Below, in pieces: positions 15,544 through 26,203 of a DNA stretch of 38,640 nt. This stretch comes from Chloracidobacterium sp. CP2_5A (lineage in GTDB: Bacteria > Acidobacteriota > Blastocatellia > Chloracidobacteriales > Chloracidobacteriaceae). The notes beneath the pieces are model-generated. The model worked only from the letters and a program-made list of their open reading frames with translations, was not told the DNA's origin and searched no databases. The translations under genes and the position numbers were made by a program. How positions within the stretch are numbered: position 1 is the first letter of the stretch; each line of letters opens with the position of its first letter. The stretch is taken from the NCBI GenBank assembly GCA_002254845.1, contig NKPT01000032.1, forward strand, positions 1 to 38,640. Reading direction: 5' to 3'.

Positions 15544-17148
15544 ATGCCGCAGGACCTTGAAACCCTCGTCGCCGAGCTGAAGGCGCTCGAAGCCCGGCTT
15601 CGGCTGGGCGGCGGCGAAGCCAAAATCGAGCGCCTTCACGCGCAGGGCAAGCTGACCGCCCGCGAGCGCGTCGCCAGGCTGCTGGACCCGGATTCCTTAT
15701 TTCTTGAAATCGGCTTGCTTGTCGCCCACGACCAGTACGACGGGCAAGCCCCGGCGGCCGGCGTCGTGACCGGCATCGGGCGGTGTCACGGGCGCGAAAT
15801 TGTCGTCGTGGCGAACGACCCGACCGTGAAAGCCGGCGCGTGGTTCCCTGAAACCATCACGAAGATGCTGCGGGCGCAGGAAATCGCCATGCGCTGCCGA
15901 ACGCCGATTGTCTATCTGGTGGATTCGGCCGGGGTCAACCTGCCGTACCAGGGCGGCGTGTTTCCGGGACAGTACGGCGCGGCGCGGCTGTTTTACTACA
16001 ACTCGCTCATGCGCCGGCACTTGCGCGTTCCGCAACTAGCGGCCGTCCTGGGGCAGTGCATCGCGGGCGGGGCTTATTTGCCGGCGCTGTCGGATGTCAT
16101 CGTCATGGTCGAGGGGACCAGCTTTATGGGGCTTGGCGGCGTCAACCTTGTGCGCGGCGCGACCGGGCAAACGTCCGATCCCGAAGCCCTGGGCGGGGCG
16201 CGCATGCACACGGAGGTTTCCGGCGTCGCCCACTATCGCGAGCCGGACGACCAGGCCTGCTTGGCGCGCTTGCGGCGACTGGTTGGGGAACTGCCGCCGC
16301 CCCCGCCGCGCGCCGTGGCCGTCGGGACGCCGCGCCCGCCGCGCCGCGATCCGCGCGAGGCCTACCGCATCTTGCCCGCCGATCACCGGCTGCCCTACGA
16401 CGCCGAAGCGTTTCTCGAGACGCTGCTAGACGCTGATACGCTCGATGAGTTTCAGGCCGACTACGCCCGCGAGATGATCTGCGCCCAGGCCCGCGTGGAG
16501 GGCATTCCGGTCGGGCTCATCGCCAACCGGCGCGGTCTCATCAAGTCAGCCGGCGACAAGCCGCCGCGCTTCGGCGGCATCATCTATCGGGAAAGCGCCG
16601 AGAAGGTTGCCTATTTCATCGAAACCTGCAACCGCCACCGGCTGCCGTTGCTCTTTGTGCAGGATGTATCGGGCTTCATGGTCGGCGTCGAGGCCGAGCA
16701 ATCGGGCATCATTCGCGCTGGCGCGCAGTTTGTCGAAGCCATGGCGACCGCGACCGTGCCGAAGCTCGTGCTGACGGTCAACCATGCGTCGGGCGCGGGC
16801 TACTACGCCATGGCTGGGCAGGGCTTTGACCCAAACTTCATCTTTTCGCTCCCGACCGGGCGGATGGGCGTCATGGAAGGCGAATCGGCCGTGATGGCGC
16901 TGTTTTCGGCGCAACTGGAAAAGCTCAAAGCGGAGGGCAAGTCGCCCGACGCGGCGCTCCAGGCTGAAATGAACAGGGTTCGAGCGACGTACGAAGCGCA
17001 GCTTGACGCCCGTTTTGCCGCCGCGCGCGGCTTTTGCGACGCCGTTCTCGCGCCGGAGGACGCGCGCCCAATGCTCAAGCTGGCGCTTGAAACCTGCCTC
17101 AACCAGCCCGGGCCTCACCTCGGGCCGTTTGTGCTGACTGGCGGCTAG
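15544..17148 (+). CDS. Acyl-CoA carboxylase carboxyltransferase subunit (PccB/MccB type)
   Basis: 534 aa, the usual length. This subunit moves carboxyl groups from biotin to an acyl-CoA (propionyl-, methylcrotonyl- or acetyl-CoA). Both crotonase-like halves are present: N-terminal KIERLHAQGKLTARERVARLLD, VVVANDPTVKAGAWFPET, LVDSAGVNLPYQ and QCIAGGAYLPALSD, then C-terminal GLIANRRG, LFVQDVSGFMVG, VNHASGAGYYAMAG and GRMGVMEGESAV. The LPYQGGVFPG loop and the overall pattern lean to methylcrotonyl- or similar branched substrates, but the substrate cannot be fixed. No biotin carboxylase subunit is in the window, so its partner is elsewhere. Confidence 0.92.
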   Translation: MPQDLETLVAELKALEARLRLGGGEAKIERLHAQGKLTARERVARLLDPDSLFLEIGLLVAHDQYDGQAPAAGVVTGIGRCHGREIVVVANDPTVKAGAWFPETITKMLRAQEIAMRCRTPIVYLVDSAGVNLPYQGGVFPGQYGAARLFYYNSLMRRHLRVPQLAAVLGQCIAGGAYLPALSDVIVMVEGTSFMGLGGVNLVRGATGQTSDPEALGGARMHTEVSGVAHYREPDDQACLARLRRLVGELPPPPPRAVAVGTPRPPRRDPREAYRILPADHRLPYDAEAFLETLLDADTLDEFQADYAREMICAQARVEGIPVGLIANRRGLIKSAGDKPPRFGGIIYRESAEKVAYFIETCNRHRLPLLFVQDVSGFMVGVEAEQSGIIRAGAQFVEAMATATVPKLVLTVNHASGAGYYAMAGQGFDPNFIFSLPTGRMGVMEGESAVMALFSAQLEKLKAEGKSPDAALQAEMNRVRATYEAQLDARFAAARGFCDAVLAPEDARPMLKLALETCLNQPGPHLGPFVLTGG

Positions 17149-17318: not shown

Positions 17319-17328
17319 GTGCTATAGT
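17319..17328 (+). promoter_or_regulatory. Extended -10 promoter for the pilus operon
   Basis: TGCTATAGT (TATAGT at 17323-17328 with the upstream TGn extension). No good -35 is visible at 16-18 bp. A start of transcription near 17335 would leave a leader of about 40 bases before the pilC ATG at 17376. Confidence 0.45.
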
Positions 17329-17375
17329 CGCGAGTCTATGACTTGCCTAAGCATCGCTTTTCTTGCGGTTTGACC

Positions 17376-18590
17376 ATGCCTGAGTTTACCTGCCGATTGG
17401 GCACGCCGAGCGGGGACATTGTCACGCGCATCGTCGAGGCGAATGGCGTCGAGGAGCTGCGCCAGCGCCTGCAAAGCGAGGGCTTCCGCATCTTTGCCAT
17501 CGAGCGCCCGATGCGCCGCGCCCTCCAGTCGTCCGCGCTTGGGGGCGTCAAGATCAAGCCGCAGGAGTTTCTGCTCTACAATCAACAGCTTGCCACGCTG
17601 CTCCGGGCGGGGCTGCCGCTGCTGCAAGTGCTGAGCATTCTGATTCGCCGCCAGCCGCCCGGCGCGTTCCGAACCGTGCTGGAAGACGTTGAGCGCAGAA
17701 TTACGCGCGGCGGACTGCTTTCCGAGGCCTACGGCGAGCATCCCGATGTGTTCCCCCGGCTGCTGACGGCGTCAGTGCTGGCCGGCGAGCGCTCCGGCGA
17801 GCTGGACGCCGTGCTGGAGCGATATGTCAACCACGCCAAGGCGACGGCCGCAATCCGGCGCAAGCTCGTCAAAACGCTGACCTATCCGGCGATTCTCACC
17901 GTTGCCTCAATTGCTTTAGTCGCCTTGCTCACGACCTATGTGATTCCAAAGTTCGCCACGCTTTATGAGTCTTCCAACAGCGAGCTGCCGCTGGTGACGG
18001 TCTATGTCGTGGCGGTCTCGAAGGCGATAGAAAGCAATGTGTACTGGCTGGGACCGACGCTCTTGGCGGCGATCATCGCCTTCTTCGCCTGGCGGCGCAC
18101 GACGCAGGGGCGCGCCATCCTGGATGGCTTGTTCCTCAAGGTTCCGGTCGTCGGCGACATCATTCGGCAGTCCACGACCGCGCGGTTCTGCCGCAGCGCC
18201 GCGACGCTGCTCAATGGCGGGCTGCCGCTGCTCGAATCGCTAGACATCGCCTCCGAGGTAATTGGCAATCGGCGCATCGCCAAGACGATGCCGGATGTCA
18301 CGCGGGGGATTCAGGAAGGCCAAACGCTGGTGGACGCGCTGGAGCGGGCGAAGTGGATGCCGGCCCTGGCGACCGACATGATCGGCGTCGGCGAGAAGTC
18401 CGGCTCGCTGGTCACGATGCTGGACGAAGTCGCGCAGTTTTACGAAGCCGAGCTAGACGTGAAAATCGCCTCGCTCACGGCGCTCATCGAGCCGATTGTT
18501 CTGGGCTTTATGGGGACGATTGTGCTCATTGTGGTCCTGGCGCTCTACTTGCCAATTCTGAGCTTTGCGACCGGAGGCGCCGCGCGCTGA
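17376..18590 (+). CDS. pilC: Type II secretion / type IV pilus inner-membrane platform protein (PilC/GspF)
   Basis: 404 aa. The platform protein in the inner membrane links the PilB motor to pilin assembly. Two T2SSF repeats are visible: the first from about residue 65 (FLLYNQQLATLLRAGLPLLQ) and the second from about 265 (FCRSAATLLNGGLPLLESL). Three hydrophobic stretches fit the family topology (TVASIALVALLTTYVIP, LGPTLLAAIIAFFAW, TIVLIVVLALYLPIL). The N-terminal 60 aa (MPEFTCRL onward) matches the usual start; the frame runs up to a TTG at 17343, which I judge less likely. There is no clear Shine-Dalgarno. It is the first gene of a six-gene operon. Confidence 0.93.
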   Translation: MPEFTCRLGTPSGDIVTRIVEANGVEELRQRLQSEGFRIFAIERPMRRALQSSALGGVKIKPQEFLLYNQQLATLLRAGLPLLQVLSILIRRQPPGAFRTVLEDVERRITRGGLLSEAYGEHPDVFPRLLTASVLAGERSGELDAVLERYVNHAKATAAIRRKLVKTLTYPAILTVASIALVALLTTYVIPKFATLYESSNSELPLVTVYVVAVSKAIESNVYWLGPTLLAAIIAFFAWRRTTQGRAILDGLFLKVPVVGDIIRQSTTARFCRSAATLLNGGLPLLESLDIASEVIGNRRIAKTMPDVTRGIQEGQTLVDALERAKWMPALATDMIGVGEKSGSLVTMLDEVAQFYEAELDVKIASLTALIEPIVLGFMGTIVLIVVLALYLPILSFATGGAAR

Positions 18591-18617
18591 CCAGGCGCCT
18601 CCGGCTGACGCTTACCT

Positions 18618-20252
18618 ATGTCTTTGGATACAACGCCCAATCTGCCCTCGATGCTCCCGTCGGCGGAAGAAGCCGACCGCGAGCTGGCGGCCGCGCGCGA
18701 GCTGGCGCGCCGCTACCGGCTGGAGTTCGTGGACCTGACGACCGCCAGCCTTGACTACGATCTGATCCACGCGCATCCGGTGGAGTTGATGACGCGCTAT
18801 AAGTTCGTGCCGCTGCGACAGGAGAACGGCCGGCTTTTCGCGGCGATGGCCGACCCAACCAACCTCGATGCGCTGGATGAGCTGTCGGCGCAGCTGAAAG
18901 CGCGCATCAAGCCCGCCGTGGCGACCCGCTCGGCGATTGAAAACGCGCTGCGGCGCGGGGATTCGGCCCAGCGCGTGCTACAGGACGCGACAGAATCGTT
19001 TCGCATCAAGCTCGTCAAGGAAACCGACCAGGGCGAGCAGGACCTCGACCTCGACCGCCTCGCCGACGAGACCGCGCCGGTCATCAAGCTGGTGGACACC
19101 ATCGTGCTGACGGCGCTTGAGCGGCGCGTGTCAGACATCCACATCGAGGCCCACGAGTCGGAAGTGCACGTGAAATATCGCATTGACGGCGCGCTGTACC
19201 CGGCGATGAATCCGATTGACGCGAGCTATCACCAGATGCTCATCTCGCGCATCAAGGTCATGTCGGAGCTGGATATCGCCGAGCGCCGGACGCCGCAGGA
19301 CGGCCGCTTCCGCGTGCGCGTCAAGGGGCGGACGATTGACTTTCGCGTGTCCATCATTCCGTCCGCCTTCGGCGAAAACTGCGTCATCCGCATCCTCGAC
19401 AAGGAGCAAATCAACGAGTCGTTCCGCGAGCTGACGCTGAACGTCGTCGGCTTTGATCCGAGCGACCTGGCTCGCTTCCGCCGATTTATTCATGAACCCT
19501 ACGGCATGGTGCTTGTAACCGGGCCGACCGGATCGGGCAAAACCACGACGCTTTACGCCGCGCTGAATGAAATCGCCAATCCCGAAGACAAAATCATCAC
19601 GATCGAAGATCCGGTAGAGTACCAGCTGCGCGGCATTATGCAGATTCCGGTCAACGAGAAAAAAGGGCTGACCTTCGCTCGCGGACTGCGCGCCATTTTG
19701 CGGCACGACCCGGACAAGGTGATGGTGGGCGAAATCCGCGATACGGAAACCGCGCAGATCGCCATCAACGCCGCGCTGACCGGGCATTTGGTGTTCACGA
19801 CGGTTCACGCCAACAATGTCATTGACGTCATTGGTCGATTCGTCAACATGGGCGTTGAAGTGTATAACTTTGTCAGCTCGCTCAACTGCGTCCTGGCTCA
19901 GCGCCTGGTGCGGCAGCTGTGTCACCGGTGCAAGCGGCCGTATCAACCGTCGGATCGGGAGCTTGAAGACTCCGGGCTGAATCCGAGCAAGTTTCGCGAC
20001 CACGCGTTTTACGAGGCGACGGGCTGCGCGGAGTGCAACGGCACCGGCTACCGGGGACGGACCGCCATTCACGAGATGCTCGATCTGACTGACCGGATTC
20101 GGGAGCTTATTCTCGACCGCCGTCCCGGCTCGGAGATTCGCCGCGCGGCGCGAGAAGAAGGGCTTGGCTCGCTGCGCGAATCGGCCCTGAAGAAAGTTTT
20201 CGCGGGCATTTCAACCCTGCGCGAGATCAATCGCGTCACCTTTGTCGAGTAG
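18618..20252 (+). CDS. pilB: Type II secretion / type IV pilus assembly ATPase (PilB/GspE)
   Basis: 544 aa. The hexameric cytoplasmic motor powers pilin or pseudopilin extension. The N-terminal GspE domain (about 20-110, ARRYRLEFVDL, YKFVPLRQENGRLFAAMADP) is followed by Walker A GPTGSGKTTTLY (near residue 301), the Asp box IITIEDPVEYQL, Walker B VMVGEIRDTETAQI, the His box TGHLVFTTVHAN, and a four-cysteine zinc site (CHRC and CAEC) typical of PilB/GspE. No PilT-like retraction ATPase is found in the window. It begins 27 bp after pilC, and ATG 18618 lacks an obvious ribosome site. Confidence 0.95.
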   Translation: MSLDTTPNLPSMLPSAEEADRELAAARELARRYRLEFVDLTTASLDYDLIHAHPVELMTRYKFVPLRQENGRLFAAMADPTNLDALDELSAQLKARIKPAVATRSAIENALRRGDSAQRVLQDATESFRIKLVKETDQGEQDLDLDRLADETAPVIKLVDTIVLTALERRVSDIHIEAHESEVHVKYRIDGALYPAMNPIDASYHQMLISRIKVMSELDIAERRTPQDGRFRVRVKGRTIDFRVSIIPSAFGENCVIRILDKEQINESFRELTLNVVGFDPSDLARFRRFIHEPYGMVLVTGPTGSGKTTTLYAALNEIANPEDKIITIEDPVEYQLRGIMQIPVNEKKGLTFARGLRAILRHDPDKVMVGEIRDTETAQIAINAALTGHLVFTTVHANNVIDVIGRFVNMGVEVYNFVSSLNCVLAQRLVRQLCHRCKRPYQPSDRELEDSGLNPSKFRDHAFYEATGCAECNGTGYRGRTAIHEMLDLTDRIRELILDRRPGSEIRRAAREEGLGSLRESALKKVFAGISTLREINRVTFVE

Positions 20253-20291
20253 GCTTTACATTTCACGCTCAACGCCTGTCGAGGTGGGCTT

Positions 20292-22958
20292 ATGTTACAA
20301 CCAACGCTGCGTTCCAATGTTTTGTCTCGCCTGCGGCGGGCGGCGGCCCTGGGGCTTTCCGCCGCGCTGGCGGTCGCCTGGCTGTCGCCGGCGGCCTATG
20401 CCGGAAACGGCAAGAAGTATTTCAAGGAAGGCATAAAATACGAGACCGTCAAGCAGTGGGACAAAGCCGCGGAACTCTTCGCGCAGGCGCTCCAGGAAGA
20501 GCCGGCGAATGTGGAGTATCAGCTGCACCTTCAGCGGGCGCTGTTCAACGCCTCGGTGCTTTGCGCGACGCGCGCGCGTCAGATGGAAGAGCAGGGCGAT
20601 TACGAAGGCGCGTATCACGCCTACCGCGAGGCCTACCGCTACGACCAGACCAACGAGGTCGCCTTCGCCAAGATGAAGGAGATGCTCAAGAAGCAGGGCA
20701 TCGAGGCGACGCCGCAGGGCGAGCCGTCACCCTATCAGCGGACGGCCGCCGAAGCGACCGAGGCCGAGACCCGCAAGGCCGCCGAGGCCGCCGCGCGGCA
20801 GCGCTACGTCGGTCGCTGGCAGGGCTTCGTCAACCAGCCCGTCGAGACCATTGTCAGGACGCTCTGCGACAAGATGCGCCTCAACGTCGTCTTCGAAAGC
20901 ACGACCATCCAGCAAATGGCCAACGCGCGCTTCACGCTCGACATCAAGCAGGATATGACGGCCGGCAAGGCGCTGGAACTCGTCCTCGACGCGAACGGCT
21001 TTCAGTATTTTCGCGTGGACACCCGCACGATTCTCATCGTCAAGCGCGGGCTGGGGCAGTTTCCCAACGGCGGCTCGCTAGCGCAGAAGTACGAAGACTC
21101 GCTCGTCAAGCCGTTCTACATCAAGAACGCCAAGCTTGACGACGTGAAGCAGATGCTGACCCTGCTCGGCCCGGCCATGGCGCAGCAGGTTGTTTCCGTG
21201 CCGCAGTCGAACATGCTGCTGGTTCGGTCATCCGGCGAAAATCTGAAGATCATTGAGCGGATGATCAGCACGGTGGACCGCCCGCAGGCGGAAGTCGTCA
21301 TGGATGTCAACATCTATGAAGTTACGCAGCAGGAGGCGCTCCAACTGGGCAATCAGTTTGCGACGCAGCCGCCGACCATCACGAGTCCCGACGGCGGAAC
21401 GAGCGTGACGCTCAAGCCGCCCAGCGCGACCAACTTGGGCGGCATTGGGCAGGGCCCGCTGCTGCGCCCCGTATCTCCGGCCGGGGTTTTTAGCAATGCG
21501 CTGGGCTTCGGGCTCGGATTGCCGCCGTCAACCATCACAGCGCTCCAGAGCAAGGGGCTGGGACGCCTGATCTCGCAGGTGCAGGTGCGGGCCTTCGAGG
21601 ATAAGGAGGGCAAAGTCAACATCGGGCAGTCCGTGCCGATACAGATTGGCAACCCGTTTCCAGGCATCCCGGGCGGCGGGCAGCCGCCGCCGGGGCAAAT
21701 CTTTTTCCCCGGCTTCAACCAGGTGCAGTACCGGGACGTGGGCTTGAACATTTCGGTCAAGCCGCACATTACGGATGACATTGTCCAGATGGACATCGCC
21801 ATCGAGACCTCGACGGTGCCGCCCGACGCCGGCGGCACCAACCTGACCCCGACGATTTCACAGCGCAAGGTGAGCGGCGTGGCGCGCGTGCGGGATGGCT
21901 ACACGGCGCTGGCGGCAAGCGTCATGCGCGTGGATGACACCGATACGCGGACGGGGCTGCCCGTCATCAGCTTCATCCCGGTCATTGGGCGGCTCTTTTC
22001 CACGCCGTCGCGCAACAAGCAAGCGACGCACATCGTCATCACGGTCACGCCGCATATTGTGCGCGGCGGCGCGGTCACCGAAGAGGAGCTCAAGACCGCT
22101 TTCGGCCCGCTGGATGTCTCGGTGGGCGTTGGCGGGCTGAGCTACGGGCGGTTTCTCACGATTGATGAAATCGTCGCCGATGCCGACCGCGAGGAAATGC
22201 GCGAGGCCAATCAGCTCCGGGAAACGCCGGTGACGACCCAGCCGCCGGACAAGCCGATTGGCGCGCCGGCCGCCGCCCCGCCGGTCAGCGGCGGCGACGG
22301 ACGCTTTGTAATCAGCGCCCCAACCACCCCGGCAGCCACCCCGGGCGCGCTGTCGCGCACCGAGAGCGGCAGCTTCGGCGGCATCATTCAGATGCAGCCG
22401 TTGCCCGAAACAGGCGTCGCGCAGGCGGGCGGTGGCGGGGCCGCGCCGATGAGCGCGCCGCCAGCCCAGCCGCAATTCAACCCGAGCGATCCCAACTCGC
22501 CGGTGCCGTCGCGCCCGTCTTCGGGCGGCTCCGTGCGGTCGGTGCTGATGGTGTCGCCGAGCCTGCGTCCGGCCGTAGGGCAGATGATTTCGGTGGCGGT
22601 GATCCTCAGCAGCGAGGCGACCAGCATTTCAGCGGCTTCCATCTTTCTGCACTACAACCAAGCGGCGCTCAAGCTGGTCGGCATACGGGACGGCGGCGTT
22701 CTCTCTCCGGGCAGCTTCCAGACGGGTGATAACGGCGGACAGGCGTTTGCGACAGCGCTGGTGTCATCGGGGATGACCAGCGGGCGTCCGGCGAACGGAC
22801 CCCTGGCCTTCTTTGATTTTCAGGTGATTGCGCCGGGCAATGGCGACATTCGCCTGGACGTGCTGGATCTGCGCGGGTTGACAAATGAGCTTATCCCGGT
22901 CATTCCAAGTCCCGCGCCGCCCGTGATCGCGGGCGGCGCGCCAAACGGCAAGCAGTGA
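20292..22958 (+). CDS. Secretin with N-terminal TPR-like region and C-terminal cohesin-like domain (GspD/PilQ family)
   Basis: 888 aa. It should form the outer-membrane channel of this pilus/secretion system. Signal peptide 1-37 (ending AYA). Residues about 40-135 form TPR-like helices (KYFKEGIKYETVKQWDKAAE). A ring-building N-domain follows (about 180-255, LDIKQDMTAGKALELVLDANG), then another (about 270-345, VKPFYIKNAKLDDVKQML). The secretin beta-domain covers about 420-610, with VQYRDVGLNISVKPHI and THIVITVTPHIV. A Pro/Ala-rich linker leads to a cohesin-like beta-sandwich at about 747-870 (VSPSLRPAVGQMISVAVIL, IFLHYNQAALKLVGI, PLAFFDFQVIAPG). GAGGTGG just before ATG 20292 fits a ribosome site. 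The pseudopilin gene overlaps its stop codon. Confidence 0.9.
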   Translation: MLQPTLRSNVLSRLRRAAALGLSAALAVAWLSPAAYAGNGKKYFKEGIKYETVKQWDKAAELFAQALQEEPANVEYQLHLQRALFNASVLCATRARQMEEQGDYEGAYHAYREAYRYDQTNEVAFAKMKEMLKKQGIEATPQGEPSPYQRTAAEATEAETRKAAEAAARQRYVGRWQGFVNQPVETIVRTLCDKMRLNVVFESTTIQQMANARFTLDIKQDMTAGKALELVLDANGFQYFRVDTRTILIVKRGLGQFPNGGSLAQKYEDSLVKPFYIKNAKLDDVKQMLTLLGPAMAQQVVSVPQSNMLLVRSSGENLKIIERMISTVDRPQAEVVMDVNIYEVTQQEALQLGNQFATQPPTITSPDGGTSVTLKPPSATNLGGIGQGPLLRPVSPAGVFSNALGFGLGLPPSTITALQSKGLGRLISQVQVRAFEDKEGKVNIGQSVPIQIGNPFPGIPGGGQPPPGQIFFPGFNQVQYRDVGLNISVKPHITDDIVQMDIAIETSTVPPDAGGTNLTPTISQRKVSGVARVRDGYTALAASVMRVDDTDTRTGLPVISFIPVIGRLFSTPSRNKQATHIVITVTPHIVRGGAVTEEELKTAFGPLDVSVGVGGLSYGRFLTIDEIVADADREEMREANQLRETPVTTQPPDKPIGAPAAAPPVSGGDGRFVISAPTTPAATPGALSRTESGSFGGIIQMQPLPETGVAQAGGGGAAPMSAPPAQPQFNPSDPNSPVPSRPSSGGSVRSVLMVSPSLRPAVGQMISVAVILSSEATSISAASIFLHYNQAALKLVGIRDGGVLSPGSFQTGDNGGQAFATALVSSGMTSGRPANGPLAFFDFQVIAPGNGDIRLDVLDLRGLTNELIPVIPSPAPPVIAGGAPNGKQ

Positions 22959-23533
22959 CGAGCAAGCCAGGGCAGACCGCGTGGCCGGAACTCCGGCGGC
23001 GGCGCAGCGAGCGAAACGGAGAGCAAGGCGGGCGGCAAGCCGTCGGGCGGCGCCGGCGCTTCGGCGCGGCGGCGGTTGGCTCCTCGCTGCTGGAAATGAT
23101 CATCACGCTGGCGATTCTAGCTGTGCTGACCAGCGCCGCGCTGCCGCTCGCGCGCACAGCCGCCCGGAGCCGTCAGGAAACCGAGCTGCGCCGGGCGCTG
23201 CGCGAAATCCGCTTCGCCATTGACCGCTACAAGGAGTTCAACGACCAGACCGGCGGGCAGCGGCTTCCCGCCGAGCTGCGCACGCCGAGCGGCTACCCCA
23301 AGAAGCTGGAAATCCTTTACGAGGGCTTTGTTCCGGCCGGCAACGTGGACGGCAAGAAGGTCTTCTTTCTGCGGCGACTCCCAATTGACCCGATGACCGG
23401 CAAGGCCGACTGGCAAATCCGCTCCTCGGCGGACGCTCCTGACTCGTCGCTTTCCTCCGGCGATGATGTGTTTGATGTCCGGTCGCGCTCGACGGCTACG
23501 GCGTTGGATGGGACGCGCTACAACGAATGGTGA
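22955..23533 (+). CDS. Type II secretion-like pseudopilin (GspG-like) with long basic leader
   Basis: 192 aa. Prepilins are cut by a leader peptidase and packed into a pilus by the PilB/PilC motor. The cut site is G42|SSLLEM with Glu at +5, followed by the hydrophobic helix IITLAILAVLTSAALPL. The leader is unusually long (42 aa) and very basic, and Ser replaces the common Phe at +1. The C-terminal part shows LPIDPMTGKADW and ends DGTRYNEW as in GspG-type pilins. The GTG start overlaps the secretin stop by four bases (GTGA), a translational coupling; a later start would shorten the leader, but I see no better one. Confidence 0.85.
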   Translation: MTSKPGQTAWPELRRRRSERNGEQGGRQAVGRRRRFGAAAVGSSLLEMIITLAILAVLTSAALPLARTAARSRQETELRRALREIRFAIDRYKEFNDQTGGQRLPAELRTPSGYPKKLEILYEGFVPAGNVDGKKVFFLRRLPIDPMTGKADWQIRSSADAPDSSLSSGDDVFDVRSRSTATALDGTRYNEW

Positions 23534-23943
23534 CGGATGTGAAAAAGTTTCGCTTGGCGCGAAGAAGCGGCGGCTTCACGCTGCTCGAGCTCGTCATGGT
23601 GATGACCGTCATGGCGATTCTGCTGACCATGAGCATTCCGATTTATCGCAACCTGCTGCTGCGGGCGCGCGAGACGGTGCTCCGGGATAACCTTTTCAAA
23701 ATGCGCGATGCGATTAATCGCTATAGCTACGATAAGAATCGCGCGCCGGAAACGCTCAAGGACCTCGAAAAAGCCAAGTATCTACGCGAAATCCCGATGG
23801 ATCCCATCACGCAGCGCCGCGACACCTGGACGGTGCGCCTGGAGGATGAGCCGGTGATCCCATCAGCGCCGCGCGGCATTGTGGATGTCTTCAGCGGCGC
23901 GGAAGGCGTGGGCAGCGACGGCGTTCCGTACAATGAGTGGTAG
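23527..23943 (+). CDS. Type II secretion-like pseudopilin (GspG-like)
   Basis: 138 aa. Canonical cleavage site SGG|FTLLEL after residue 16, Glu at +5 (Glu21), and helix VMVMTVMAILLTMSIPIYR. The C-terminal domain has IPMDPITQRRDTW and ends GVPYNEW, the same end as its neighbour, suggesting an old duplication and possible co-assembly of both pilins. ATG 23527 overlaps the last codons of the preceding pseudopilin, so translation is likely coupled. Confidence 0.93.
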   Translation: MVTDVKKFRLARRSGGFTLLELVMVMTVMAILLTMSIPIYRNLLLRARETVLRDNLFKMRDAINRYSYDKNRAPETLKDLEKAKYLREIPMDPITQRRDTWTVRLEDEPVIPSAPRGIVDVFSGAEGVGSDGVPYNEW

Positions 23944-23997
23944 CCGTTTTGGAACAGCCGCTTGTCAGGCCTGCGACACGGCTTTGGGTGTGGATGT

Positions 23998-24936
23998 ATG
24001 AGCGTTTTTGAACGATTTTGGCAGCGACTGACGGCTCCGCTCCCATCGCGCGCGATCTGCGCGCTGACCTCCGAGGGCGTAGTCGCGTTTGACCGGCGCA
24101 GCCGGCAGTCGGCGTTTCGCCCCTGGACGGAACAAGCCTTTCAGCCGGGCTTCGATGAGGAAAACGTGCGTCGCCCGGATGTCTTTGCGGCGGTTTTGCG
24201 CGACGCGGCGCGGGCGCTGGGACTGTCCGGCGAGCGGCGATGGTCGGCGCTGGTGCCAGGCGCGACCGCGCGGACGCACGTCATCACGCTGGAGGCCGCG
24301 ACGCCCCGGCAGGATGTGCCGGAAGTGATTTTGTGGAAGGCCGAGCGCCTGACGGGCCTCGCCGGCAGCGACCTCTGGATGACGGTCGCGGAGCTTGGCC
24401 CGGCGTCAACGGCGGCGGGCGGCGCTGGCAAGCGATTTTTGCTGACGGCGATGAATCGGCGGGTCGCCCTTGACCTTCAGGGGCATTTGCAGCGATTGGG
24501 CTGGCAACCGGGTCTAATCCTGCCCCGCATCGTTTGCGAATCGCTGTGGCTACAGCGTAGCCCGGCGCAGCTTGACCAGATGCTCATCAGCGTCGAGGAA
24601 GACACCTTGGCGGTCATGCTGCTTCGGAGAGGCTTTCCGCTGGCCATCCGAACGCTGCCGCTCGCGGGCGAAGCGCCAGCGGAGCAGTTGCTTCGGCTGT
24701 TGCTCTTCTTCCGCGAACACGCGGCCGAGTCAGGGCTGAGCTTGGAAACCACTCAAATTCGGTTTGAGGTTCTGGCGGTCAACGCGCCGCTGAAAACGGC
24801 GGAAATCAGCCAGTGCATCGTCGAAACCTTTGGCGAAGCGCCGCGCATGGTTGAGCCGCGCCAGCTTGGCTTTGCTTCCGCAAGCGAGCTTTCCCAGCTG
24901 GCCGGGGTGGCCGGGCTAGCCTTGGCGACGGACTGA
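23998..24936 (+). CDS. PilM-like actin-fold protein of the pilus/secretion operon
   Basis: 312 aa, soluble. Position after the pilins and the pattern (ICALTSEGVVAFDRRSRQ, ARTHVITLEAATP, then a beta-rich middle with LQRLGWQPGLILPRIV and RFEVLAVNAP) suggest the PilM/GspL cytoplasmic actin-like ATPase that links the motor to inner-membrane partners. The similarity is weak and rests mostly on order. ATG 23998 is preferred over TTG 23962, with a GT-rich stretch before it. PilN and PilO, which normally follow PilM, are absent: the next gene is an M20 peptidase 16 bp downstream. Confidence 0.65.
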   Translation: MSVFERFWQRLTAPLPSRAICALTSEGVVAFDRRSRQSAFRPWTEQAFQPGFDEENVRRPDVFAAVLRDAARALGLSGERRWSALVPGATARTHVITLEAATPRQDVPEVILWKAERLTGLAGSDLWMTVAELGPASTAAGGAGKRFLLTAMNRRVALDLQGHLQRLGWQPGLILPRIVCESLWLQRSPAQLDQMLISVEEDTLAVMLLRRGFPLAIRTLPLAGEAPAEQLLRLLLFFREHAAESGLSLETTQIRFEVLAVNAPLKTAEISQCIVETFGEAPRMVEPRQLGFASASELSQLAGVAGLALATD

Positions 24937-24952: not shown

Positions 24953-26203
24953 ATGTCCGTGGGGGTCGCTCAGCCGCCGCCGGAGGCGCTTTCCGCGCCG
25001 GAGGCCGTTGTCGAGGCGCTCTTGGAGACGCCGCTCCTGGGACGGCTTCGGGAGTACTTTTTCATAACGGCGGACGCCATCACGAGCGAGCAGGTCGCCA
25101 TCGCGGAGATTCCAGCTCCGCCGTTTCACGAGGCGGCGCGGGCGCAGTTTCTTGCCGAGCGGCTGCGCGACGCCGGGCTGCCCATCGCTCGCCAGGACGC
25201 GGAAGGCAACGTCTGCGGATGGCTGCCGGGCGCGGACCCGACGCGCCCGCCGATTGTCGTCGCCGCCCACCTCGACACCGTCTTTCCGCCTGAAACCGAT
25301 GTGACGGTCAGCGTCCGCGGCGGGCGGCTCTATGCGCCGGGCATTGCCGACAACGCCTGCGGGCTGGCCGGACTGCTGGCGCTCGCGCGGGCCTTTGTCC
25401 TCCATGACGTTCGCCCGGCGGGGCCGATCTGCTTTGTCGGCACGGTTGGCGAGGAAGGGCCGGGCAACCTGCGCGGCGTTCGGGCGCTGATCGGCGGCAT
25501 GCCGAACATACGATTTTTCATTGCGTTAGACGGGCCGGGACTGGAGCGCATTACCTGCCGAGCGATTGGCTCGCGTCGCTTTCGGGTGACGTTTAGCGGA
25601 CTGGGCGGGCATTCCTGGGCGAACTTTGGCGCAGTCAATCCGGCGCACGCGCTGGGCGAGTTTATTCACTTGATTCGTCACCTTCCGTTGCGGCGCGGCA
25701 CGACCTGCACCGTAGCGGCGGTTGGCGGCGGCGGCGTCATTAACGCCATTCCGACGGAAGCCTATGCCGACCTGGATTGTCGGGCCGAGGCCAACGCCGA
25801 CCTTGACCATTTGGAGAACGAGGTGCGCCTGGCGGTCGTCCAGGCGCAGCAGGCGGAAATGCAGGCCGCGACGCGGCGGAGCCGGCTGGCCACGACGGTG
25901 CGGCGCTTGGGCGACCGACCGGCCGGCGAAACGCCGCGCTCGACGGCGCTGGCGCGCTGCGCGGTCGCGGCGACGCGCGCCTGCGGGCAGCGCCCGACGC
26001 TCGACAGCGGCTCGACGGACGCCAATGTGCCAATGGCGCTCGGCATTCCGGCGATTGCGATTGGCGCGGGCGGCGAGTACGGCGGCTGCCACACGCTGGA
26101 AGAGTGGTATGACCCGACGGGACGCCCGCGGAGCTTGACGCGCGCCACCCTGTTACTGCTCGCGCTTGACCGATTGCCGGTTGAGCCGTCAGAGCGATAT
26201 TGA
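24953..26203 (+). CDS. M20 family metallopeptidase (PepT/ArgE-type)
   Basis: 416 aa, cytoplasmic by absence of a signal peptide. The family hydrolyses small peptides or acyl-amino acids with two zinc ions. Visible: AAHLDTVFP (His106, Asp108), GIADNACGLAGLL (Asp133), the catalytic base and ligand in GEEGPGN (Glu167, Glu168), a dimerisation lid (about 200-310, with SGLGGHSWANFG), and the C-terminal His in GGCHTLEEWYDP. The order is normal. Substrate unknown. It starts 16 bp after the pilM-like gene, so it may be on the pilus transcript. A G9 run lies before its ATG. Confidence 0.92.
   Translation: MSVGVAQPPPEALSAPEAVVEALLETPLLGRLREYFFITADAITSEQVAIAEIPAPPFHEAARAQFLAERLRDAGLPIARQDAEGNVCGWLPGADPTRPPIVVAAHLDTVFPPETDVTVSVRGGRLYAPGIADNACGLAGLLALARAFVLHDVRPAGPICFVGTVGEEGPGNLRGVRALIGGMPNIRFFIALDGPGLERITCRAIGSRRFRVTFSGLGGHSWANFGAVNPAHALGEFIHLIRHLPLRRGTTCTVAAVGGGGVINAIPTEAYADLDCRAEANADLDHLENEVRLAVVQAQQAEMQAATRRSRLATTVRRLGDRPAGETPRSTALARCAVAATRACGQRPTLDSGSTDANVPMALGIPAIAIGAGGEYGGCHTLEEWYDPTGRPRSLTRATLLLLALDRLPVEPSERY

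Follow-up and report, generated by a model that had tools for sequence, protein, structure and literature searches.

Why should the outer-membrane channel of a secretion machine end in a cohesin, a domain studied mostly as the receptor of dockerins? The question is raised by an operon at positions 17343-24936 of a 38,640-nucleotide window from Chloracidobacterium sp. CP2_5A (assembly GCA_002254845.1, contig NKPT01000032.1), the window being the whole of one contig, C244, of a draft genome of 3.41 Mb in 385 contigs that is estimated to be 95% complete. The operon comprises GspF/PilC, GspE/PilB with an MshEN domain, a secretin of 888 amino acids (aa), two pseudopilins and a PilM homologue. An initial annotation, made from the sequence alone, had named these six genes and a cohesin-like domain at about residues 747-870 of the secretin, and had supposed that this domain could anchor or receive dockerin-tagged cargo. 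All six genes were confirmed by Pfam, NCBIfam and profile matches, and the domain by a family profile, a predicted fold and a structural alignment; the cargo role found no support. We lean, with moderate confidence, towards a streamlined machine resembling a type II secretion system (T2SS), which would probably share parts with a type IV pilus and whose ring of cohesins would dock a partner other than a dockerin.

The comparisons drew on a genus set of seven genomes (this one and six further), a phylum sample of 396 genomes, 47 of them of the class Blastocatellia, and 14 control genomes. Per-genome counts are lower bounds, taken from the best nine candidates or fewer per genome in the tail search and the best 16 or fewer in the dockerin search. 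As to the alignments, A1 and A2 held 19 and 29 of 34 secretins, A2 omitting L028 because of its internal stop and also four close members of the genus; A3 contained the window plus 63 of the 80 named tails (omitted were five cut at contig ends, the disturbed L093 and eleven by choice); A4 the window and 19 of 53 suitable PilM sequences, A5 15 of 22, A6 the window and 59 of 78, and A7 16 of 20 strong PilO matches.

The C-terminal tail of the secretin

Taken by itself the Pfam cohesin profile (PF00963) would not settle what the tail is, because its scores for the window (17.9 bits on the whole protein, 21.9 on the bare tail and 21.4 in the genome search) stay below the cut-off of 24.1 and because at E ≤ 1 it also matches in E. 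coli. Among 29 orthologous bare tails, 23 matched at E ≤ 0.1 (best 3.9e-10). When 15 whole secretins of relatives were searched, five exceeded the cut-off (L208 38.0, L225 35.0, L218 32.6, L219 27.0 and L228 26.3 bits), five lay below it and five were unmatched, the last including L101 as well as L205 and L206, both without a recognisable cohesin.

The identity of the tail was settled by its family profile, its predicted fold and structural alignment taken together. Searched against solved structures, the tail-family profile retrieved cohesins and scaffoldins at ranks 1-20 (best E 2.4e-10), followed at ranks 21 and 22 by unrelated entries with E values of 0.07 and 0.2. The AlphaFold2 (AF2) model of the tail reached a predicted local distance difference test score (pLDDT) of 90 and a predicted template modelling score (pTM) of 0.84, and of its 33 best Foldseek chains the first 32 came from entries whose titles name cohesin, cohesin-dockerin or scaffoldin, and the one at rank 33 from a clostridial glycoside hydrolase, as a module for protein-protein interaction. 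The model aligned with the cellulosomal cohesin 1g1k_A at a Z score of 16.1 (root-mean-square deviation 2.2, 134 residues aligned) and with the archaeal non-cellulosomal cohesin 2xdh at a Z score of 15.2 (3.2, 130 residues). The jelly-roll of the cohesins, a fold of nine strands, was recognised in it, the model having ten strands of three residues or more. Thus the fold prediction, which might have returned a fold unrelated to cohesin, put cohesin entries at the top, and the tail is, on its predicted fold, a true cohesin. Another beta-sandwich was considered and rejected: the first non-cohesin fold came at Foldseek rank 34 (9ifr, an adhesin CLIPPER domain, Z score 12.6), with carbohydrate-binding and integrin domains ranking below it.

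Compared with the six further genus members, the cohesin keeps 80-90% identity with a ratio of nonsynonymous to synonymous substitution rates (dN/dS) of 0.05-0.10, next to 0.04-0.09 for the pore, and the linker 52-69% identity with a dN/dS of 0.13-0.38, the dS of these pairs reaching 1.7 and thus being near saturation for some. The low dN/dS of the cohesin and the conservation of the tail led us to reject a spurious or decaying extension.

The cohesin closes a chain which begins with a signal peptide, recognised by eye, and continues as follows:

20397..20711, + strand: tetratricopeptide repeat (TPR) helices, residues about 36-140 (TPR_2; AF2 helices, block pLDDT 80-97 in the first 100 model residues)
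20826..21044, + strand: N0-like domain, residues about 179-251 (FecR_C and STN weak, below cut-off; AF2; Foldseek matches to the N0-N1 of MxiD and InvG)
21102..21275, + strand: N1 (Secretin_N) domain, residues about 271-328 (Secretin_N 32 bits; AF2 model)
21540..22064, + strand: secretin pore domain, residues 417-591 (PF00263)
22224..22526, + strand: low-complexity linker, residues about 645-745 (sequence)
22530..22901, + strand: cohesin module, residues about 747-870 (family profile, AF2 fold, structural alignment, conservation)

The N-terminal AF2 model had a mean pLDDT of 79 and a pTM of 0.37, which makes the domains credible and their mutual arrangement not. Foldseek matched this model to the N0-N1 domains of type III secretins and to generic TPR arrays, and the TPR region to designed TPR arrays (best E 7e-04). 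Two PF00263 secretins are found in the genome, that of the operon and a PilQ on contig C174; the latter has an AMIN domain and the former has none.

At E ≤ 0.001 the tail was found in all 47 genomes of the class and in 289 of the 396 of the phylum, in agreement with the initial expectation that the architecture would recur in Acidobacteria. The phylum figure is a lower bound, since the tails of two genomes, G011 and G088, were unmatched at this cut-off yet recognisable by reading, and the secretins of both match the tail profile when searched singly. The profile also matched all 75 secretins of named relatives whose frame reaches a stop codon, having been built partly from the same genomes, and 21 of 23 secretins fetched from other classes, in loci chosen for diversity and tail status and not at random. 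The channel of TPR, N0, N1, secretin, linker and cohesin is conserved through the class, as judged from sequence. Moreover, 81 of 84 cohesin matches checked by position sit at the secretin; those away from it were in G350 and G366, on another contig, and in G183, elsewhere on the same contig. The 84 had been picked by eye from about 150 as coming from genomes with a listed secretin match, and some may have been missed.

Two secretins were exceptions, and they bear only in part on whether the tail can be lost with the operon kept. In G056 a TPR-bearing secretin of 556 aa stops after the pore and has no tail, its gene setting being a different one, and in G048 the secretin bears a different, unclassified tail and adjoins a GspC-like gene. 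The tail-less secretin of G056 (loci L206/L211) stands beside an immunoglobulin (Ig)-like lipoprotein and a giant open reading frame of 3310 aa. Lipoprotein-like genes were seen beside the secretin or the pseudopilins at several sister-class loci (L211 12104-13309, L222 12288-12791 and L229 2838-3851), two of the three having Ig-like repeats by eye.

The operon and its missing platform genes

The genes of the operon are the following:

17343..18590, + strand: GspF/PilC inner-membrane platform protein (T2SSF 191 bits)
18618..20252, + strand: GspE/PilB assembly ATPase with MshEN domain (T2SSE 438 bits, MshEN 75 bits)
20292..22958, + strand: secretin, 888 aa, with N-terminal TPR and C-terminal cohesin (Secretin 97 bits, Secretin_N 32, TPR_2 28)
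22955..23533, + strand: pseudopilin 1 (N_methyl 15.7 bits, cut-off 21.2)
23527..23943, + strand: pseudopilin 2, GspG-like (N_methyl 27.4 bits, above cut-off)
23962..24936, + strand: PilM homologue at the 3' end, start likely near 23998 (hhalign and solved PilM structures)

The starts used by relatives put the probable beginning of GspF near 17376 and that of PilM near 23998; with the later PilM start the intergenic gaps are 27, 39, -4, -7 and 54 bases, which fits one transcription unit. Homologues of GspD, GspE, GspF and GspG thus occur together, as assigned at family level by Pfam, the NCBIfam equivalogs all scoring below cut-off. The small pseudopilins number two, GspH, GspI, GspJ and GspK having been looked for in the operon alone. 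By eye both carry E5 of the pilin motif, after G^SSLLE in the first, which adjoins the secretin in relatives too, and after G^FTLLE in the second. A motif scan confined to the window gave no third pseudopilin; in sister classes a further pseudopilin-like gene, the third, contains ELIFRG and was seen downstream of GspG2 in L222, L224, L225, L229 and probably L213. The operon is preceded by a carboxyltransferase-domain gene (15544-17148) and followed after 16 bases by an M20-type peptidase gene (24953-26203), which occupies the same place in L013, L014 and L019.

The window has no PilN, PilO or A24 prepilin peptidase, the genome-wide matches of all three lying on other contigs. PF04350 (PilO) matched on C174 only, PF01478 (A24 peptidase) once, on C222, at 25.8 bits and thus just below its cut-off of 26.5, and PF05137 (PilN) twice, on C174 (E 0.009) and, probably by chance, on C14 (E 0.25). 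C174 holds a pilus operon with PilM_2 (231 bits), PilN (21.0 bits, cut-off 22.8), PilO, PilP (by position only) and PilQ. As for ATPases, eight T2SSE matches at E ≤ 1e-30 were counted in the genome, that of the operon being the sole one on the window's contig. The initial annotation was therefore right that PilN, PilO and the peptidase are missing here, and the pilus genes and a peptidase match turned up elsewhere when they were sought.

The PilM-like gene at the 3' end gives no Pfam match by itself; it was assigned through its family profile, which hits solved structures of PilM (best E 8e-06), and it belongs to the same family as the PilM which lies upstream in sister operons (hhalign probability 100, E 3.3e-41). 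In the other classes, PilM-PilN-PilO stand upstream of the secretin in 20 of the 23 fetched loci, with a separate GspC/PilP-like gene in 18 of these; the models of PilM, PilN, PilO and GspC were iterated on the same 23 loci, and independent Pfam support is weak for three of them. Across 80 named loci of close relatives, 35 of which span GspE to PilM, no match to PilN, PilO or GspC exceeded 25 bits, and no coding-strand frame had a sister model of PilM, PilN, PilO or GspC as its best match above that score. The order secretin-GspG1-GspG2-PilM was found in 62 of the 80, the other 18 showing part of the operon only; GspE lies upstream in 35 of the 62, is missing in 17 although over 4.5 kb of sequence is available upstream, and the remaining 10 are on short contigs. 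In those 17 loci (e.g. L074, L105 and L107) neither GspF nor GspE is upstream, so the operon is split and PilM stays with the secretin. Pyrinomonas methylaliphatogenes K22 (L101) has the streamlined operon, and L065, a record titled Actinomycetota bacterium, carries genes of contig C891 of G007, a genome of the window's family, and is probably mislabelled.

Of the platform genes of a T2SS, GspC and GspL/GspM or else PilM/PilN/PilO, the cluster holds PilM only, for which reason we call the system T2SS-like; nor do PilM, PilN, PilO, PilP and PilQ of a type IVa pilus stand together in the operon. A simple relocation of the system's own PilN and PilO was considered and rejected, because the PilO profile of the sister operons finds a single match in the genome (E 1.4e-14), which we read as the pilus PilO since the only match of PF04350 is there. 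With this profile the genomes of the class peak at 1.9e-25 (44 with one match, three with two), and genomes with the linked gene reach 1.5e-61; PF04350 itself matches in 7 of the 14 control genomes at E ≤ 1, in two above cut-off. Matches to the sister PilO profile are weak also in families f15, f28 and several more, and the platform genes of G229 (f15) lie away from the secretin; loss or relocation may thus be a repeated event. On the gene orders compared, the absence of PilN and PilO from the operon looks derived.

Dockerins and the role of the tail

The genome search agreed with the initial annotation in seeing no dockerin: PF00404 had no match at E ≤ 1 in this genome, about 95% complete, so that dockerin-bearing enzymes such as accompany a cellulosome were not found by it, and none above the Pfam cut-off in the seven genus genomes. 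E values near 1 mean little for this profile, since 9 of the 14 control genomes match at E ≤ 1; at E ≤ 0.001 it matched 148 of the 396 genomes of the phylum, 12 of the 47 of the class and two of the controls. Thus 35 of the 47 genomes of the class retain the tail with no dockerin match at this threshold, from which it follows that a dockerin is not required for its retention. Over the phylum 117 genomes had tail and dockerin, 172 the tail only, 31 the dockerin only and 76 neither. Among genomes with at least 12 dockerin matches, six of seven had no tail match; these six belong to two families (f23 and f39) and have at best weak secretin matches, of 1e-17 to 1e-20, one having none, so they may lack the operon altogether. 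In four genomes (G133, G097, G173 and G076, families f24 and f35; loci L244, L245, L246 and L247) we observed small clusters with a protein that ends, or nearly ends, in a dockerin (PF00404), a short lipoprotein-like protein which by eye carries a cohesin-like module, and another short protein with a cohesin. From their sequences these cohesins and dockerins are plausible true pairs, away from the secretin.

In the mechanism which we propose, GspE and GspF would drive a short pseudopilus of GspG1 and GspG2, and these two subunits would push substrates through the secretin. PilN, PilO and GspC/PilP, kept in the operon in other classes, would have been lost from that of this class, and for PilN, PilO and the prepilin peptidase the machine would draw on the separate type IV pilus. 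Each subunit would contribute one cohesin, tethered by a linker of some 100 residues, and together these would most likely make up a loose ring. Since the chains of known secretins end at the periplasmic face of the outer membrane, the ring is most likely periplasmic. Most of the mass of known secretins lies in the periplasm (PMC6532946), and a C-terminal S-domain binds pilotins in several secretin systems (PMC6532946, PMC10499894). The ring could serve as a protein-docking site for a substrate, a peptidoglycan or outer-membrane protein or an assembly factor, the partner being something other than a Pfam dockerin, and the N-terminal TPR may do the job that a separate TPR pilotin does elsewhere. 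By fold the TPR was not identified as a pilotin, Foldseek having listed generic and designed TPR matches only.

Several points weigh against this proposal. The co-occurrence of tail and dockerin over the 396 genomes is weakly positive (odds ratio 1.67, Fisher p 0.036, uncorrected for relatedness); PF00404 could overlook divergent dockerins, and a dockerin partner in some lineages may be compatible with the data. The copies of PilO vary within the family (two in G001 and G007, three in G008, five in G009 and one in each of the other six, this genome included), so a dedicated second copy is possible in some genomes. Moreover, the loss of the platform genes and its direction are argued from gene order, the side of the membrane on which the cohesin would lie is taken by analogy from secretins without such a tail, and the machine may run without PilN and PilO, or be degenerate. 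All in all, the cohesin module probably serves a non-cellulosomal docking job, conserved across much of the phylum. A wider claim, in which a phylum-wide secretin would use its cohesin ring as a non-dockerin receptor and the class would run the machine with PilM alone, time-sharing PilN, PilO and the peptidase with the pilus, we put forward only tentatively.

The alternatives overlap with this proposal and with each other, and the weights given to them are not exclusive. The one which survives best, possible if somewhat doubtful, is that the cohesin has no cargo role and is an assembly or anchoring module, which would tether the ring of secretin subunits to some component of the peptidoglycan or the outer membrane and replace a pilotin or the GspA/GspB complex. 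We know of no cohesin that binds peptidoglycan, and no candidate partner for the cohesin was identified here; still, the operon has no other gene fit for a separate pilotin (no genome-wide pilotin search was made), the tail is under purifying selection like the pore and is present with or without linked platform genes, and several known secretins bind their pilotins through the C-terminal region (PMC6532946, PMC10499894). Rather unlikely is a second type IV pilus or a competence apparatus in place of a secretion system. The ATPase does score slightly higher with the NCBIfam model of PilB (567 bits) than with that of GspE (551), and the pseudopilins show similarity both to ComGC/ComGE and to GspG, the first giving 23.6 bits with ComGE and 13.7 with GspG and the second 31 bits with GspG; the secretin, by contrast, prefers GspD (134 bits) to PilQ (101), and the platform protein has GspF as its best model (323 bits, curated cut-off 424) before PilC (288), all of these scores being below cut-off. 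Moreover, the genome encodes further T2SSE-type ATPases and a pilus operon apart from this one, and a GspC/PilP-like gene is found in the sister operons. A cellulosome-like reception or anchoring of dockerin-tagged cargo at the outer membrane is very improbable, since the similarity to 1g1k_A and the weak association with dockerins in the phylum are set against the lack of dockerin matches above cut-off in the genus, the retention of the tail without such matches in most of the class, the dockerin-rich genomes with no tail match (which may lack the operon) and the short cohesins which accompany dockerin genes away from the secretin.

If the wider claim is true, a cohesin would be at work inside a secretion nanomachine instead of an enzyme scaffold, and the operon would be a natural hybrid of T2SS and type IV pilus platforms. 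As a conserved cohesin that sits on a secretion channel, in lineages where no dockerin could be detected, the tail offers a test of other cohesin ligands; likewise, since PilN, PilO and GspC are absent from the operon and PilM is retained, the sharing of a platform by a secretion and a pilus machine is directly testable.

Comparison with known systems

Secretins, cohesins and T2SSs of PilM type are already known, and secretin-cohesin architectures appear in Pfam. A description of a cohesin-bearing secretin was not found in the literature searched, although Peer et al. 2009, on non-cellulosomal cohesins, may list such proteins. The accessible parts of PMC10066038, PMC6461901, PMC6532946, PMC6668835, PMC3543383, PMC7084401, PMC10499894 and PMC8787282 describe none: in the Leptospirillum paper (PMC7084401) the word cohesin appears solely in a reference on RecN, the main text of the type IV filament survey PMC6668835 contains neither 'Acidobacteri' nor 'cohesin', and PMC8787282 notes T2SS genes in a clade of Acidobacteria.

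The domain shares its fold with cellulosomal and non-cellulosomal cohesins of PF00963, as the alignments with 1g1k_A and 2xdh indicate, and differs from them in being fused to an outer-membrane secretin in a genome without a PF00404 dockerin. In the 'planctosome' proposed for Planctomycetes, cohesins on anchoring and adaptor proteins are paired with dockerins (PMC6461901); in both cases a Gram-negative phylum uses cohesins outside cellulosomes, whereas here the cohesin sits on a secretin and no dockerin was detected. With the PilMNOPQ of type IVa pili the operon shares the PilM homology, and such an operon exists elsewhere in the same genome; it lacks PilN, PilO and PilP, and its secretin lacks the AMIN domain of the genome's own PilQ. 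The TPR pilotins PilF and TadD (PMC10499894) likewise bring TPR repeats to work with a secretin, but here the repeats lie within the secretin chain and match generic and designed TPRs only.

In gene content the operon appears closest to those T2SSs which use PilM, PilN and PilO in place of GspL and GspM. The Pul/Oxp system of the Geobacteraceae uses these three proteins, and the sister-class clusters resemble it in holding GspE, GspF, a GspD-like secretin, PilM, PilN, PilO and several GspG-like pseudopilins. The operon described here differs from it in the absence of PilN, PilO and GspC, common to the window's class, in that the window yielded no third pseudopilin, and probably in the TPR and cohesin modules of its secretin. 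In Geobacter and Pelobacter the Pul system, with the pseudopilins PulG, OxpG and TklG, is needed for the export of OmpB (PMC3543383), and of the systems described in the literature searched it is the nearest relative of the machine.

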